A stretch of 64,000 nt of DNA from a bacterium (GTDB lineage: Bacteria; Hinthialibacterota; Hinthialibacteria; H5-UNCL2). This document shows positions 29,967 through 42,076 of the stretch, piece by piece. Position numbers and translations under genes: made by a program. The DNA is taken from NCBI GenBank assembly GCA_015075175.1, contig JABTUV010000001.1, positions 310,001 to 374,000 of the forward strand, read 5' to 3'. The notes under the pieces are model-generated. The model made no database searches. It was not told where the DNA came from and saw only the letters and a program-made list of their open reading frames with translations. Position 1 is the first letter of the stretch, and each line of letters opens with the position of its first letter.

Positions 29967-31025
29967 ATGAACAATTCGGATCGGCCTCTGGCACGCACGG
30001 CGTGGCGGACGGCGGAGTTTGCGTTTCCGGGCTTGCTCCTTTTCGGCTGCCTTGTGAGCATGCAGGCCCAGACCACCAAGGTCTTCGACCAGGACGCACT
30101 CCTGCGCTATATCGAGCACCGCGAGGAACTGGCGGGCGCCTTCGCCTGCACCCCGCGTGCGCCCTACCTCGACCTCTTGTTTCTTTCCACCAAGTGGCAG
30201 ACCGCTTTCAGCAGCAGCGGCCTTGTTGGTTGCGCCTGCGATCCTGACTTTGATGGTCTGTCCAGTTGTTTCGAGATCGCCCTGACGACCGATCCGCTCG
30301 ATCCGGACACCGACAACGACTGCATGGGCGACGGCCTGGAAATCCTGTTGGGGACCAATCCCCTGGCGGCGGATACGGTCGGCGACGGCACGCGCGACAA
30401 CCTGCGCGACATGAACCAGAACGGCATCCCCGACGGCAACGACGACTACGACAAGGACGGGCTGGGCAACTGCGAGGAGGTGCTGGTCCACCACACCAAT
30501 CCGTTGGAGGCGGACACGGACTTCGACCTGCTTAAAGACGGCGACGAGATCACCAAGGGGACCGATCCACGCGTGGCCGACACCGATCAGGACGGTTTCA
30601 TCGACGGCGAGGAGGTCGAGTTCAACTCCGATCCGTTGGACAAGAACAGCCTGCCGGTGGATCCCAACGCCACCTACGGCCTCTCAACGGGCTTGGCGTT
30701 TTCGGTCGTCAACCAGGCCGATCCGAGCGACCCGCCCTATGGACTTGCGGTCGTGACCGTGCTTTCGGTGGAAAACCGGGCTGATCCGACGGGGCCGGGC
30801 TATGGCGAGGCGTTCGGACCGACCTTCGCCCTTGAGAACCGCGTGGACCCGACGGGCGACGGTTACGGCTTGGCGTTTTCCCTGCCCGTGGCCGTCGAGA
30901 ATCGCGCCGACCCCACAGAGGACGTTTTCGGCGGGACGTTCCGCCGTCCCTTCTCAGTTCAAAACACCGGCGGCGGCAAGGCCGCTTTAAGAACATCGAC
31001 GGACGAAACAGAGGCGTCGCAGTGA
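29967..31025 (+). CDS. Secreted protein with thrombospondin-3-type Ca repeats and a C-terminal 21-residue repeat
   Basis: 352 residues. Hydrophobic N-terminal segment FAFPGLLLFGCLVSMQAQ looks like an export signal. Residues about 95-230 are Asp-rich calcium-binding repeats (DPDFDGLSSC, DPDTDNDCMGDGLE, DKDGLGNCEE, DTDQDGFIDGEE) as in thrombospondin type 3 modules. Residues about 235-340 hold four to five copies of an about 21-residue unit with core VENRADPTGxGYG. Function probably structural at the cell surface. It is followed 22 bases later by another exported protein. Confidence 0.82.
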   Translation: MNNSDRPLARTAWRTAEFAFPGLLLFGCLVSMQAQTTKVFDQDALLRYIEHREELAGAFACTPRAPYLDLLFLSTKWQTAFSSSGLVGCACDPDFDGLSSCFEIALTTDPLDPDTDNDCMGDGLEILLGTNPLAADTVGDGTRDNLRDMNQNGIPDGNDDYDKDGLGNCEEVLVHHTNPLEADTDFDLLKDGDEITKGTDPRVADTDQDGFIDGEEVEFNSDPLDKNSLPVDPNATYGLSTGLAFSVVNQADPSDPPYGLAVVTVLSVENRADPTGPGYGEAFGPTFALENRVDPTGDGYGLAFSLPVAVENRADPTEDVFGGTFRRPFSVQNTGGGKAALRTSTDETEASQ

Positions 31026-32308: not shown

Positions 32309-34867
32309 TCAGTGCGCGGGCAGGACGGCCAGGCGATGAGGGCGTGTCGGCGGTGGGAGGGAAACGACCCCGTGGTCCACGATCTCACCCGTCAGTGAGA
32401 CGACGTGAAAGCGCATCTCGTGGGGGTCGATGTCAAGGACGAGGAGAGCCAGGGCGCGATCGAAGAGACCCTGCGTTCCGGGCAGGGCGAGACCGTCGCC
32501 CTCGTTGAGATGGCCGCTACTGCCCATCACGAATTGCAGCAGTCCATCATCGGGTCGGCGCAGTGAATAAACGTGGCTGTGGCCGCAGATTAGGGCGGCG
32601 ACGCCGGCCGCCTGCATGGCCGGCTCCAGCGAGGCGCGGATGCGCTCGCTGCCGGCGTGATCGGTGGCCACCCGGTAGATGGGGTGGTGCAGGGCCACAA
32701 ACTTCCAAGGCGCCCGGCTGGCCGCCAGCGCCGCCTTGAACCACTCCGCCTGCTGCGGATCCCCGTTCCAGTCCGGCAACGGTTGAAATCTCTTCATCGG
32801 CGTGCTGTCCAGAAAGAAGACTTCCACGAGACCATCCGCGAAGACTTGGGTGTAATAGCGGCGCCCGTTCATGTGAAAGGGCGGATAGTGGACCTGGTTC
32901 TCGCGAGTGGGTTGGTCGTGGTTGCCGAGCACGGCGTAGAAAGGGATGCCGGCGGCCAGGAGGGGGGCGTAGGGTTCCTCGAAGACCGCGGACAGGCGGC
33001 TGTCGCCGGCGGAGACGTCGGGATAGATATTGTCGCCCAGCAGGAGGACGGCATCGGGAGGCGGGAGCAGGCCGGCCAAGACGCGCGCCAGCCGGTACTG
33101 GCCGGGATAGCCGGTTCCGGTATCGCCCAGCGCCGCCAGGCGCAAGGACCCGCGCCGCGGGATCGGAACGTCCGTAGCTGACATCACGGCGGCGCGATAG
33201 CCGGCGTTGGGGACGATTCGGCGCAGGCCGAAATCCAGCTCCCAGAAGCCGGCGTCGGCGCCCAGTCCAGCCGCCGAGAGCTTGTTGCGCAGCTTGGCGA
33301 AGTTACGCTCGGAACCTACCAGGACCGCCGGTTGGCTGGCCGACAGGACTGCGCGAACGTCCTGCAATCGGTCGGTCTCGATCTCGTTAATGCGACGCGA
33401 AAGGCCCCAGAGCAGCGAGGGGCGAATCTGTTCGATGGAATAGACGGGCATTCCCGGGGGCGCCCAGTGAGCCAGAAAATCCGCGAAGGCGTGCTCGGAG
33501 GGGTAGATGCGCTCGTCGCGGCTGACCACGCGCAACACGTGCGAGGAAAGGAGCATGGCGCAGGCGGCGGCGGCGGCGACGAAGCGGGTTCCGCCCGCCC
33601 GGCGCGCGGAGAAGGTCGAGAGCGAAAGGCCGAGCACGATGGCGCCCAAGGCGGCCAACTCGGGCTCGACCGGCAGGGTACGATGGTAGGCGTCTGACAG
33701 CCACCACCAGGCCGCCAGGGCCAGGGCGGCGGCTACGGCGGGCGCCGCCCACCAGCGCGCAGGCGCCGTTGGGCGTCGTCGCGCCCACCACTCGGCCGTC
33801 AGCAGCGCCGCCGCCGGAAGCGCGGGCAGAATGTAATGCGGCAGCTTCGAGCCGCCCAGACTGAAAAAGCCGACCACCCCCACCAGCCAGGCCAGCGCGA
33901 AGGCGCGCAGCGGTTGCCTCTGCGTCCACGCGCGCACGCCCTGTCTCTTCATTTCCACCAGGCAGTCCCATGCCGCCCAGGCGACGAGGGGCGTCCAGAT
34001 GAGCAACGCCGCCGGCGCGACTCCCAGATAGTAAAAGGGATTGCCGGCGCGCTTGAACTCGTTGGTGAAATAGCGCCCCAATAGTTCGTCCTGGAAGAAA
34101 TAACGGAAGGCGTGTTCTCCCAGTTGCCAAGTGACCCAGAGATACCAAGGCAGGGAGAGCGCGGCGGCCAGGCCGAGCAGCCGCAGCCAGGGTGCGGCGC
34201 GCCAGGCTGTCCGGGTCTCGCCGCGGAGGACCAGAAAGAGGAGGAAGACGACCACGGGCACGGCCAGCGCTACCGGCCCCTTCAGGTTGACGCCCGCGGC
34301 GACGGACAACGCCGCCCAGACGAGCCACCGGACTCGGCTGCGGTTTTCGTTCCAGGCATAGAGGAGGAGGAGGGTCGCGGTCATCGAGAGACAGAGCAGC
34401 ATATCGACCATGGCCACGCGAGCCATGGCCCAGAAGAGGCCGGAGGAGGCGAGCATGGCGAAACACAGGAAGGCGACCGTCCAGGAGCCGGTGCGGCGGG
34501 CGGCGAAGCGGGCTACGAGCACCAGAACGGCGAGCGCGGCCATCAACGAGGAGAGGCGCGCTGAAGCGGCCTTTTGTCCGAATGCGGACATGAAGCCGGC
34601 CAGGATCCAGTGATAGGGAGCGGGTTTCTTGATGCGCGGCTCGTAATTGAGAGTCGGGACGTCCCACTGGCCGGTCTCCAGCATCTCGCGCGTCACTTCC
34701 AGGTAACGCGCCTCGTCGGGATCGAATGGAGGGATGGAGGGGAGGTTGACGAAGATGGAGAGAAGGAGCGCCGCGGCGACGAACAATCCCCTCCAGCTCC
34801 CCCTGTTAAGGGGGGAGCACGGCCCATTCGTCCCATAGGCCCCAATCTTCAACCACGACAACCTCAT
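32309..34867 (-). CDS. ArnT/PMT-type membrane glycosyltransferase fused to a purple-acid-phosphatase-like domain
   Basis: 852 residues. Residues 1 to about 500 are a multi-spanning GT83/PMT_2-like transferase: IPPFDPDEARYLEVTREML (the DPDEARY catalytic loop), RIKKPAPYHWI, about 10 hydrophobic helices, KLPHYILPALPAAALL. The C-terminal ~280 residues are a metallophosphatase with all five motif blocks: LGDTG, GDNIYPD, GNHD, ALHHPIY, GHSH, in the spacing of tartrate-resistant acid phosphatase. ArnT-type enzymes use polyprenyl-phosphate sugars, so the phosphatase might act on lipid or sugar phosphate (inference). The first 25 residues are partly repeat sequence. It starts 7 bases after the LacI gene. 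Confidence 0.85.
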   Translation of the reverse strand: MRLSWLKIGAYGTNGPCSPLNRGSWRGLFVAAALLLSIFVNLPSIPPFDPDEARYLEVTREMLETGQWDVPTLNYEPRIKKPAPYHWILAGFMSAFGQKAASARLSSLMAALAVLVLVARFAARRTGSWTVAFLCFAMLASSGLFWAMARVAMVDMLLCLSMTATLLLLYAWNENRSRVRWLVWAALSVAAGVNLKGPVALAVPVVVFLLFLVLRGETRTAWRAAPWLRLLGLAAALSLPWYLWVTWQLGEHAFRYFFQDELLGRYFTNEFKRAGNPFYYLGVAPAALLIWTPLVAWAAWDCLVEMKRQGVRAWTQRQPLRAFALAWLVGVVGFFSLGGSKLPHYILPALPAAALLTAEWWARRRPTAPARWWAAPAVAAALALAAWWWLSDAYHRTLPVEPELAALGAIVLGLSLSTFSARRAGGTRFVAAAAACAMLLSSHVLRVVSRDERIYPSEHAFADFLAHWAPPGMPVYSIEQIRPSLLWGLSRRINEIETDRLQDVRAVLSASQPAVLVGSERNFAKLRNKLSAAGLGADAGFWELDFGLRRIVPNAGYRAAVMSATDVPIPRRGSLRLAALGDTGTGYPGQYRLARVLAGLLPPPDAVLLLGDNIYPDVSAGDSRLSAVFEEPYAPLLAAGIPFYAVLGNHDQPTRENQVHYPPFHMNGRRYYTQVFADGLVEVFFLDSTPMKRFQPLPDWNGDPQQAEWFKAALAASRAPWKFVALHHPIYRVATDHAGSERIRASLEPAMQAAGVAALICGHSHVYSLRRPDDGLLQFVMGSSGHLNEGDGLALPGTQGLFDRALALLVLDIDPHEMRFHVVSLTGEIVDHGVVSLPPPTRPHRLAVLPAH

Positions 34868-34874
34868 GGTGTCC

Positions 34875-35978
34875 TCAAGAGGGGCGCTGGGCGCGCATCT
34901 GTTCGAGCACGCGCCGGCGGGCGGAGGCTTTGCGCGGCGAGTCCTTGCCGTCGCGCGGCGCCGGCGCCGCCTTGGCTCCGCAACTGTCCCGGATCACCAG
35001 CTCCGCCGGAATGAGAATCTTGGCGACGGGCAGATCCGGATTCTCGATCCGCTCGATCAGCCGCTTGGCGGCCTGGAATCCCATCTCTCGGAAGGGCTGC
35101 CGGACGGAGGTGAGAAGGGGATTGCTGGTGGCGGCCATGATGTCGTCGTCGAAACCGATCACCGCCAGGTCGTTGGGGACGGCCATGCCGCGCTTGAGCG
35201 CTTCCTGGATGATGACGCTGGCGATGAAGTCGTTGGCGCACACGACGGCGGTGGGAGGGCGGGGGCAGTCCAAGAGCTTGGCGGCGGCGTTGACGCACTC
35301 GCCGTGGGAGAAGAAGCGCGCCTGGGCGACGTAGCGCGGATCCCAGGGGAGACCTGCCGCCGTCATGGCCTGCCGCCACCCCTCGACCCGCTGCAAGCCC
35401 TCGGGGTGGTTGAACTCCGCCGCAAACCCGATGCGTCGATGCCCCAGCTTGAGCATGTGGTTGGTCGCCACGCTGGCCCAGTACACGTTGTCGATGCCCA
35501 CGCAGTCGATGTCCTCGCTGAAGAGGTTGCGCACCATGATGATGGGCCGGCCCTTGCGCGTTTGTCGTCCCACCGGTCGATAATAGATGTCCGTCTCCGC
35601 GGTGATGAAGCCGTCCACGAAGCCGCTGTCGAACTGGGTGAAATCCAGGCTGCCCTGGCGGTTCTTCTGGCTTACGGCCACGACCAGCGAGTAGCCGTAC
35701 TGGCGGGTGGCGCTCTCAATGCCTTCCAGGAGCTGCGAGAAATGCAGGCGCATGAAGGCCTCGGCCTCGGTGGAACAGATAAGGGCGACCAAGTGGCTCT
35801 GACCCTTGGTGAGACCGCGGGCGAACAGGTTGGGCCGGTAGCCGATCTTCTCGATGGCCTCCAGGATGCGGGCGCGGTTTTCGCGGCTGACCTTCTTAAG
35901 GTCCTTGCCTTGGACTACCAGAGAGACCGAGTTGCGGGAAACCCCCGCCAGTCGAGCTACATCCTCAAGCGTCGTCAT
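34875..35978 (-). CDS. LacI-family transcriptional regulator
   Basis: From ATG 35978: MTTLEDVARLAGVSRNSVSLVVQ is the LacI helix-turn-helix and hinge start. Then comes a periplasmic-binding-like effector domain (RIGFAAEFNHPEGLQRVEGWRQAM, VVCANDFIASVIIQEAL, VIGFDDDIMAATSNPLLTSV). A TTG start further up (36071) would add 31 residues with no family counterpart. The basic C-terminus (SPRKASARRRVLEQM) is unusual. It is adjacent to the glycosyltransferase-phosphatase gene and divergent from an outer-membrane protein gene, either of which it might control; sugar ligand not deducible. Confidence 0.92.
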   Translation of the reverse strand: MTTLEDVARLAGVSRNSVSLVVQGKDLKKVSRENRARILEAIEKIGYRPNLFARGLTKGQSHLVALICSTEAEAFMRLHFSQLLEGIESATRQYGYSLVVAVSQKNRQGSLDFTQFDSGFVDGFITAETDIYYRPVGRQTRKGRPIIMVRNLFSEDIDCVGIDNVYWASVATNHMLKLGHRRIGFAAEFNHPEGLQRVEGWRQAMTAAGLPWDPRYVAQARFFSHGECVNAAAKLLDCPRPPTAVVCANDFIASVIIQEALKRGMAVPNDLAVIGFDDDIMAATSNPLLTSVRQPFREMGFQAAKRLIERIENPDLPVAKILIPAELVIRDSCGAKAAPAPRDGKDSPRKASARRRVLEQMRAQRPS

Positions 35979-36219
35979 GTCCGCGTCGACCCCATCCCCG
36001 AGCTTGCGAAAGATCGCTTCAAGTCCGTCAAATTTAAGGGTTATCTGCGGCAAATGCAAGTTGTCTTTCAAGCCGAAGAGGGGCGGTGAGGACCTGGGGC
36101 GGGGGATCGAGGGGCGGAATTAGGCGTTTTTGCCTTCTTGACATTGCCGGCAGGAGCCGATCCCGCCTAATCCTTTGATTCGGGGGGGGTTACGAATTGT
36201 AGTACGGCGGCGAAAAAAC

Positions 36220-37589: not shown

Positions 37590-40500
37590 ATGAAAACGGG
37601 AAACTTCGTGAGAAGTCTTCTTTGCGCAACCATGCTGCTCGTGCCGGGACTCGGGCGCGCAGCTGCTGAGGTGATCGAGCTCACGTCCGGCGTGCCCGTC
37701 GGCGGTTTCGTAACGCCGATATTAGAGGGCGCCGAACTGCACGACACGCAGTATCGCATCACGGTCCCGCAGGGGGCGGTGGCGCTGCAGGTCGTGCTCA
37801 CCTATGGCGGGACCGAGGTCAACCCGGGCGGGGCGGGGGTCTCCGACAATCTGGATCTCCTGGTGCGGCTCGGCTCCGAGGTCAGCCAGGAGCAGTACGA
37901 CCATCGCACCAGCGGCGGCGCAATCCCCGACGTGCTGACCATCACGGGCGAGAGCGATCCACCGCTGTCGCCGGGGGTGTATTACATCGGGATCGAGAAG
38001 TTCACCGTGATGTCGCTGGGATACGAGTTGACGGCGACGGTGAGCGAGGGTCCCAGCCCCACGCCGAGTCCGTCGCCCAGCCCGTCGCCCACGCCGACGC
38101 CGCCGCCCACGGGGCTGCTGGGCGTGGTGTTCCCGCCGCAGGTGGTCGAGGGCGTGCCTCTCAATCCCGTGCGCAGCGTGCAGGCGCGCGCGCGCGGCGA
38201 CGTCAGTCAGATGATCCCCCTCGCCTTCAAGATGCAGACGCCGCCGCCCACCTACTCGGCGCAGGCCGGCCATGACGTGTACCTGCCCGGCAGCGACGCC
38301 CACTTCTACTCGCTGACCTGGCAGAAGAGCGACCGCGTGCCGGGCATTCCCGAGGGCCTGATGCTGGGTGATCCCTATGTGGGCCTGCCGGGTCCGCCGC
38401 CCTATGATCCGGGCATCGGCAGCCTGTTCGGCATGTATCCCAACCTGGCGATCCCGAGGATCCCATCGACCCGCGCACGGGCGTGTTCGGAGCGCTGATC
38501 TACTCGGATCGCTTCGGCGACAATTACGGGGGCAACGCCGTGCATCACGTGGTGCGGCGGTTCCTCCTGAATCCAGGCATCGAGATTCTTCCCGGCCTGG
38601 CGGGCGACAAGCCGGACGCGCTGTCCACGGCGGCCTACGAGTTCGGCGCGTTTACCGCGCCGCTGTCGGTCGCCGACGTGCGCTTCTCGGCGGTGCGGGA
38701 CTTCGTGGTAGACAACGTGTCGCCGTCGGTCGTGAATGCGTATCTGGACGAGGTTCAGGTGCTGCCCAACGGGTCGCGGCAGGACGCCTTCTTCGTGCGC
38801 AGGACGGGCGGCAACGGCAACGAGGGCAACGGGCAGGAGCCGGCCAGCGTGGTGGTGCGTTGGGACGGCAATCCCGGCCGCCTGTGGCAATGGAGGCTGC
38901 GCGACGACATCGACATTGACTTCCAGGACGTGCTGGAGCAGTCGACCATCCCGTCGGTGTTCCCGTCGCCGAGTTACGCTCCGCGCGACACGCAATTGAA
39001 TCAGGAGAGGACGCTGACGATCGCGCCGCCGCCGGCGGTCGTGCCGTCGGGGCGCTACTATCACGAGATCGTTCCGGTGGACGTGGCGGTCGCGGGCAGC
39101 CTGGACGGCGCGGGCGATCTTCACGTGGACAGCCTGGGCAACGTGGGCGAGAGCGCGGAAGTCAATCTCGAGGTGGACAACATTCCGCCCGAGTTCGTGT
39201 CGGTGCACCTCTTCAACGTGACCATCGGCATCGACACCTGCATCGCCGGCGACGGCCCCGGCCCGTCCCCGAACGACCAGACGGTACGGCTGACGGCCGT
39301 CATCGAGGAGCCGCCGATTGACGACGGCGTGCCCGGCGCGGGCATCGATACGAACCGCATCACCGCCGACCTGACGGAGTTCGGCTTCGGCGCGGCGGAG
39401 CCGCCCGACAGCATCACGGTGGACACACGCGACCGTTACGGCAATCCCGTGCGGGTGACGGCGGTTTGGACGCGCGCCAACGTCAACGTGCGCGACGCGC
39501 TGGACGTGACCGCCCGCGTCACCGCCTACGATCTCGTGGGCAACCACAGCACCGGCTCGGACGACATCATCGGCGACAATACGCTGCCGGTGGTCGAGCG
39601 GCCGGTGATCGTGAACACCCGCGATGAAGTGGGCAAGTTCGTCATCAACCTCGACGGCACGGTCGCCAAGGTGGATCCGCGCAACAAGTATCGCACCGAC
39701 GCCCTGCGCAACGGCGACAACGCCACCGTGATCGCACACATCTCCGACGTGTTGTGCGGCATCGACATCACGGGCATCACGGCCAACCTGACGGAGATTT
39801 CCGGCAACGCGGCCGACACGGCGGTGGCGCCGGCGACCTTCGAGAACGGCGTGGCCATCTGGCAACTGGTGTGCGGCAACAACGCCGGCGCCAGTACCGA
39901 GGTGTTGGGATTCGTGCCCACGCCCATCGTCATCAACGTGGACATCACGGCCAAGGATCACGTCCTCAACACGCGCGTGGTCAACGACGCGGACCAGGGC
40001 CAGTCGGCCTTGGACAACAAGAAGTTCCCGCCGCCCAGCGGCGTGGGCATCTGGCTGGACAACACCTGCCCGACGGTCACCAACGCGGTCATCACGGCGG
40101 ACAATCCGCCGCATGAGTTCATCGCCAACGGGCAGTTGTACACGGTCACGGCGACCTTCACCGACCTGGCCATGGTCGACGTGGAGCGGACTTTCCTGGG
40201 CGTGGCCGAGCTGAATGATCCCGGCGTGACTCCCACTCAGATTCTGGCCAGCCGGGCCATCCAGTCAGCGACCAACCCGCGTCCCTACGAGCAGGTGACG
40301 CTGGTCTGGACGACCGACGCCACGACTTTCCTGCGCATCACCCGCAGCGATCCGGTGACGCAGGACGTGTACGTCGATTTCACGCCTACCGACACGCTGG
40401 GCAACAGCAAGACGTTCGAGAACGTGGCCAAGATTCGGTTGGACAACCAGGCGCCGACGCTGACGAGCGCCGTCATCACCAACATCACCGACAATCGCAC

Positions 40501-42076
40501 GGACGCCGTCAACAACGGCAAGACGGTTCGCGTCACGGTGGTGTTGACGGATGGCCCGCTGGGCAGCGGGGTGACGCGCGAGCTGATCACGGCGGACCTG
40601 TCGCAGTTGCGCGCGCCCGAGGGCTTGGAGCAGTGGAAGGCCGTCATCCCCGACAGCTTTGACGGGACGACGGCCGTCTGGACGTTCGTTCTGACCAACA
40701 ACGCCACCATTCCCACCACGGTGAACTTCAACCTCACCATGATCGACCGCGTCGGCAACCGGCGCGACGTGCCCAACGCGGATCCCGACGGCATCCTGCT
40801 GGACAATCAGGGTCCGACCATCACCAACGTGTTGATCACCAACCAGACGCTGGGGACGGAGCTGTGGATTCGCGCCGGCCAGACGGCGGTCGTGACGGCC
40901 GACGGGGGTGACGGCGGGGGCGTGGGAGTGCTGGCGGCGGGTATCTCCGCCGACCTGTCGCAGTTGACGGGCAACGCCGGCGATACGGCGGTCGCGCCGG
41001 ACAGCTTCACCGGCGGCGTGGCCACCTGGACCCGCCCGGTGGGCAACAACACGACCGGCCCGGTCAACGTCAACGTCTCCGTCAATGCGCGGGATCAACT
41101 GGGCAATAACGCGATTGCGCCGGTGGGCGATCCCAACGGCATCCTGTTGGACAACCAAGTTCCGGTAGTGCAAAACGTGTTGATCCGCAACCTGACGCGG
41201 GACCGCGAGGACGCGGCCACGCAGAATGACGCGTTGCGCGTCACCGCAACCGTCAACGACGGCACGGGCAGCGGCATCGATCCGTCGGGCATCGTGTTGA
41301 ACCTGTCGATTCTAATCGGCGGCAAGGCCTCCGGCTTCGCCGCCAGCGAGACCGATTTCGGCGAAACCCAGTTCAGCTACGCCAACGGCGTAGCTACCTG
41401 GGACTTCACGGTACTCTCGGCTTCGCCGATGGGCCAGATTCGCGCCGAGGTCGTGGCCACGGACCGCGTCGGCAACCAGAACTCCGGCGCGGACACGATG
41501 CTTCTGGACAACCAGGGTCCGAGCATCACCAACGTGGAGATCTTCAACCTGACGCGCAACATCAACACCGAGATTCGGCGTACCGAGCAGGCGCGCATCA
41601 CCGCGACGTTTGCGGACGCGGGCATCGGGTTGAACTCGGGCAGCATCCGCGCCAACCTGTTCCAGTTGTCGGGCCTGCCGGCGGACGCGACGGTGGTACC
41701 CACCTCGTTCAATCCGGCGACAGGGGTCGCCACGTGGCTGGTGACGGTGCTCAACGCGCAACCCGGGCCGCTCACGCTCAACGTGAACGTCTGGGCGCGC
41801 GACGACCTGGACAACCTGACCTTGCTGGTCGACGCCGATCCGGACGGCATTTCGCTCAACAACAGCAAGGCGTCGCTGCTGGACGCCAACGGCGACGGAG
41901 AGGTCAATTATCTCGACCTGTTGGTGCTGGCGGGGAACTGGGGTCTGGCGACTCCGGCGACCGCCGATCCGGTGGCGGCCTCGACCGCTCCGGGCGATCC
42001 CTTGGCCGACTTGAACCTGGACGGCATGGTGGATGAGAGCGACCTCATGATCTTCATGGCCGAGCTTGCGCCGTAG
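37590..42076 (+). CDS. Giant secreted protein with tandem Ig-like modules and C-terminal dockerin-like repeats (one frameshift)
   Basis: Signal peptide MKTGNFVRSLLCATMLLVPGLGRAAAE, then a pre-peptidase C-terminal-like beta domain (to about residue 150), a Ser/Pro/Thr linker (TPSPSPSPSPTPTPPP), and a domain up to about 38,450 in the first frame. The second frame continues with DPEDPIDPRTGVFGALIY (from about 38,455) to 42,076; one indel separates them. The rest is six to seven about 130-residue repeats, each opening LDNQxPTITNVxITN and holding ITADLSQL...GNA. The tail SLLDANGDGEVNYLDLLVLAGNWG and LADLNLDGMVDESDLMIF is a dockerin-type I Ca-binding pair. Intact length about 1,495 residues. Confidence 0.82.

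Follow-up and report, generated by a model that had tools for sequence, protein, structure and literature searches.

In the window (the whole 64,000-nucleotide stretch analysed, from a contig of a Hinthialibacterota bacterium), a complete ArnT-like GT-C glycosyltransferase and a complete TRAP-like metallophosphatase were encoded by a single gene (Table 1). This domain combination of two known families is real and recurrent, and has no description in the open-access papers searched. The initial annotation had read an ArnT/PMT-type transferase and a TRAP-like phosphatase in one protein, and both sequence and fold bore this out. The open reading frame ran from an ATG to a stop codon over 852 codons with no internal stop. 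GC content per codon position was even along the gene (about 0.8 at the third position in both halves), showed no break at the junction of the halves and resembled that of the neighbouring lacI gene. This uniform codon composition, together with the fused relatives described below, ruled out an indel or assembly artefact as the source of the fusion.

Pfam profiles, phmmer searches against the PDB and an AlphaFold2 model of the fused protein (pLDDT 80, pTM 0.68) were concordant in displaying two complete modules. The N-terminal half matched PMT (E 2.5e-14) and PMT_2 (E 4.3e-11), the scores for this superfamily (PF02366/PF13231) being 53.9 and 43.7 bits against gathering thresholds of 22.7 and 26.1, and the C-terminal half matched Metallophos over the full profile (residues 575-767, E 3.4e-20). 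Against the PDB, residues 22-487 retrieved ArnT (5ezm, E 8e-25) and residues 574-786 retrieved rat TRAP (1qfc, E 3e-14). About 6 residues formed the linker between the modules, and the model was of low confidence at residues 564-571.

Table 1. Positions of the fused gene, its modules, its upstream neighbour and the PAP2 fusions (window coordinates unless a locus is given).
Feature	Position	Strand	Remarks
Fused gene, ArnT-like GT-C glycosyltransferase and TRAP-like metallophosphatase	32309..34867	-	852 aa
ArnT-like glycosyltransferase module, residues 21-565	33173..34807	-	13 predicted TM helices and ArnT-type C-terminal soluble domain
TRAP/purple-acid-phosphatase-like module, residues 571-840	32348..33157	-	D582, D612, Y615, N649, H650, H727, H763, H765
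LacI-family regulator, directly upstream	34875..36071	-	Pfam LacI HTH (residues 34-81) and Peripla_BP_3
PAP2-ArnT-like fusion	L036:5592-8054 (G013)	-	
PAP2-ArnT-like fusion	L037:5977-8430 (G008)	+	

The predicted structure of the transferase module contained the complete ArnT GT-C fold, including the C-terminal domain of ArnT, and VIA-align superposed model residues 21-565 on residues 26-570 of ArnT 5f15 (Z 38.5, rmsd 4.3, 502 residues aligned). The score against the ArnT equivalog NCBIfam NF009784 was 116.9 bits for a cut-off of 567, and the module is thus referred to as ArnT-like rather than as ArnT. Among the residues required in Burkholderia ArnT (Y43, K69, R254, E493), counterparts of the Tyr, Lys and Arg were located as Y55 (the Tyr of RYA), K81 (the Lys of YFEKP) and R265 (the Arg of the second periplasmic loop). 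These residues, the complete fold and the 13-TM topology were common to the window protein and ArnT (lipid A 4-amino-4-deoxy-L-arabinosyltransferase, GT83; 5ezm/5f15), from which the former differed by the low equivalog score (117 vs 567 bits), by a Glu to Lys change in the YFEKP motif, which reads RIKKP, and by the phosphatase module, which ArnT lacks.

The phosphatase module (about residues 571-839) aligned with human PAP 2bq8 over 264 residues (Z 32.3, rmsd 2.5), and the complete TRAP fold was recovered at Z about 32, rmsd 2.5 and about 264 residues against 2bq8, 1ute and 1war. The dinuclear metal ligands D582, D612, Y615, N649, H727, H763 and H765 were all kept, as was H650, in agreement with the initial claim that all metal-ligand motifs are present in this protein. 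Mammalian TRAP/uteroferrin (1ute, 2bq8) has this fold in full and the same set of metal-ligand positions, the Tyr among them, but is a soluble secreted enzyme of about 24% identity rather than a domain on a membrane transferase. In the other aligned fused proteins and in an unfused relative (the G037 gene) the Tyr ligand was replaced by Ser, Ala, Val or Pro, and in one of the fused proteins (G005b) GNHD had become GNQD, with Gln for His. By sequence and descent these proteins are TRAP-like, but not every one would qualify strictly as a purple acid phosphatase. GAP50, an anchor protein with the purple-acid-phosphatase fold, was among the nearest folds to the module (Z 30.8).

From the loss of the Tyr and the GNQD motif, catalysis may be unneeded in some fused members. 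These two changes, along with the closeness of the GAP50 fold, would suit a TRAP-like domain whose main role is binding or docking, in the manner of GAP50 or of the carbohydrate-binding modules on other GT-C enzymes. Precedents exist in GT-C enzymes carrying extra extracytoplasmic binding domains (PMC11127046). Such a role is nevertheless unlikely, as all eight active-site positions were intact in the window protein and the remaining ligands (D/D/N/H/H/H) were invariant across all aligned rows.

The active sites of the two modules are predicted to lie outside the cytoplasm, based on the charge pattern around the 13 TM helices, the topology of ArnT and the N-termini of stand-alone phosphatases. 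With the helices taken from the model, cytoplasmic loops were somewhat richer in positive charge (a mild positive-inside bias) and the C-terminus was placed outside; the C-terminus of ArnT is periplasmic according to PEGylation and PhoA fusion (PMC5377068). Most stand-alone phosphatase relatives possessed a hydrophobic or signal-like N-terminus. The initial annotation had called for a predicted structure to find the membrane side of the phosphatase, and allowed that this domain might be non-membrane and unrelated; in the model, it shared the extracytoplasmic side of the membrane with the active site of the transferase. The two-module architecture and the periplasmic placement of the phosphatase are held with high confidence.

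Fusions were found in 4 of the 14 genomes of the window's phylum: G000, G005 (two copies, about 58-61% identical), G007 (one copy, truncated at its 5' end where the contig stops) and G003 (one copy, with a frameshift in the phosphatase part). All three genera of family f4 carried the fusion. A second small phylum, with three genomes sampled, provided one full fusion (G322) and one genome (G037) where the transferase and phosphatase genes were adjacent and in the same frame, with a short stop-codon-containing stretch between them; this G037 phosphatase had an N-terminal hydrophobic helix of its own. Two overlapping samples of 386 genomes, in each of which just the two leading candidates of every genome were scored, yielded no further full fusion outside the two phyla. 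A scan of genome contigs yielded three loci, each matching in the transferase half alone. As for the initial caution that two separate genes might have been joined by an indel, relatives bearing the same fusion spoke against a local indel, although in one relative, G037, the pair stands as adjacent genes.

The two halves displayed different histories. In a tree with 25 other phosphatases, the phosphatases of the window, of the other fused proteins and of the G037 gene formed one clade (100/99). A single clade of the transferase halves was rejected by AU tests on 31 rows (p 1.8e-11) and on a pruned set of 18 rows with well-filled columns (p 2.5e-5), both to be read with caution since the window transferase row was long-branched and skewed in composition. 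A grouping of the window transferase with the transferase adjacent to the phosphatase gene of G037, together with the G322 counterpart of that transferase, was not rejected (AU p 0.13). A single origin of the fusion with an unchanged transferase was thus rejected for the transferase half in two row sets. Since the phosphatases form one clade and the transferases do not, either two or more separate events joined the phosphatase to ArnT-like transferases, or its transferase half was swapped; under either history, it has kept this kind of partner. Chance read-through of neighbouring genes, devoid of functional meaning, could be imagined from the G037 arrangement, with its common frame and only a short stop-containing stretch between the genes. 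It is a very improbable source of a fusion that occurs in all three genera of family f4, is duplicated in G005, is present in a second phylum and involves one phosphatase clade on two transferase lineages.

The gene context of the fusion was not conserved among the loci inspected. The LacI neighbour pointed out in the initial annotation is real in the window and was not apparent beside the other fusions, among the open reading frames looked at. The likely start of this LacI-family frame is an ATG at 35978, and its stop codon lies 7 bases ahead of the ATG of the fused gene (junction TGAGGACACCATG). Given this gap and the common strand, both genes probably belong to one transcript. Elsewhere in the window, the protein encoded at positions 29967-31025 had bacterial TSP3 repeats and, after them, several copies of a motif resembling VENRADPTGDGYGLAF, and a 1197-residue open reading frame (38483-42076) had no Pfam match at E 1e-5.

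In G322 (L032:5190-13829), a family-2 glycosyltransferase, a LAB_N gene, an ArnT-like transferase and the ArnT-like-phosphatase fusion followed one another, with another ArnT-like transferase (three in total, one of them fused) and an acyltransferase farther along the cluster. ArnC/ArnT-like pathways follow a polyprenyl-P-sugar logic, which this cluster fits, and a supply of polyprenyl-P-sugar would lead one to expect such genes. LAB_N (lipid A biosynthesis N-terminal) also occurred in the window's genome, G000 (C3:124850-125395; L100, L102), as two matches 130 bases apart. Each was reported in an open frame of 218 residues, and the two appear to reflect tandem duplication within one protein.

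In two further genomes of the window's phylum, G013 and G008, an ArnT-like transferase carried a PAP2-family lipid phosphatase fused at its N-terminus (PF01569, E 7e-18 and 1e-16, respectively). This is a second phosphatase-transferase fusion, PAP2 being unrelated to TRAP. In Pseudomonas aeruginosa, LpxT, a member of the PAP2 family, physically associates with ArnT (PMC13142001). This pair likewise brings a phosphate-handling enzyme together with ArnT, but as separate proteins, and it resembles the PAP2 fusions more than the window gene.

Taken as a bifunctional inner-membrane enzyme, the fused product would, as does ArnT, use a polyprenyl-phosphate-sugar donor and transfer its sugar to an acceptor on the periplasmic side. 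The phosphatase, which the topology would place in the periplasm on its short linker to the C-terminal domain of the transferase, may take phosphate off the donor sugar, the acceptor or the product, which would keep two steps in the modification of an envelope glycan on one chain. There is about an even chance that the phosphatase acts in this manner within the pathway of its transferase. The coupled reaction suggested in the initial annotation is supported indirectly, by the presence of the same phosphatase clade on two transferase lineages, the G037 adjacency and the parallel PAP2 fusions; the reaction itself is what we infer. Any single substrate is unlikely at best, and released polyprenyl phosphate, named at first among the candidates, would be a less likely one, on the reasoning that its hydrolysis would destroy the carrier.

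A phosphatase that merely scavenges phosphate in the periplasm, with the transferase as a membrane anchor and the two activities unrelated, would match the related stand-alone phosphatases of other phyla, G335, G204 and G377 among them, which have signal-like or twin-arginine-like N-termini and no evident link to a transferase, as well as the hydrophobic helix of the G037 phosphatase. We consider this rather unlikely, because the partners of this one phosphatase clade are specifically ArnT-like transferases, whether fused on two lineages or adjacent, and because anchoring takes one helix, not a 13-helix enzyme.

A coupled enzyme would have parallels in the three-component periplasmic glycosylation systems, which comprise a polyprenyl-P-sugar synthase, a flippase and a GT-C enzyme (PMC11127046). 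There, the 5-phosphate is taken off polyprenyl-phosphoryl-ribose-5-phosphate before use by the GT-C enzyme, and one polyprenyl phosphoribose synthase carries the phosphoribose phosphatase as a fused module (PMC11127046). These systems resemble the proposal by a GT-C enzyme acting on polyprenyl-P-sugar, a phosphatase step and fused modules, but their phosphatase is a HAD domain on the donor synthase, whereas that of the window is a TRAP-like domain on the GT-C enzyme. A ribose-5-phosphate donor was rejected as a specific prediction: homologues of decaprenyl-phosphate phosphoribosyltransferase (DPPRS) were present in 30 of the 36 genomes checked, those lacking the fusion included, so that they give no pointer to this donor. 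In a motif scan of genomes of both kinds, DPPRS had no clear link to any gene for a HAD, PAP2 or metallophosphatase protein.

Tentatively, and with less confidence than the coupling itself, these proteins may represent a new class of coupled periplasmic enzyme, in which a GT-C transferase carries its own phosphatase acting, at the surface of the membrane, on the lipid-linked sugar donor, the acceptor or the product. Such enzymes would have arisen independently, by the union of a single phosphatase clade with two lineages of transferase, and the PAP2 fusions would mirror them. If the activities are coupled, a phosphatase would work on the side of the membrane where a lipid-dependent glycosyltransferase has its active site, and periplasmic glycosylation in these little-studied bacteria would be predicted to involve a phosphorylated intermediate. 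Because two lineages of transferase bear the same clade of phosphatase, the functional link is a prediction open to testing, and the PAP2 fusions suggest that the joining of phosphatases to transferases may be a wider theme. The fold of the bone-type acid phosphatase would thereby be placed in bacterial envelope biogenesis.
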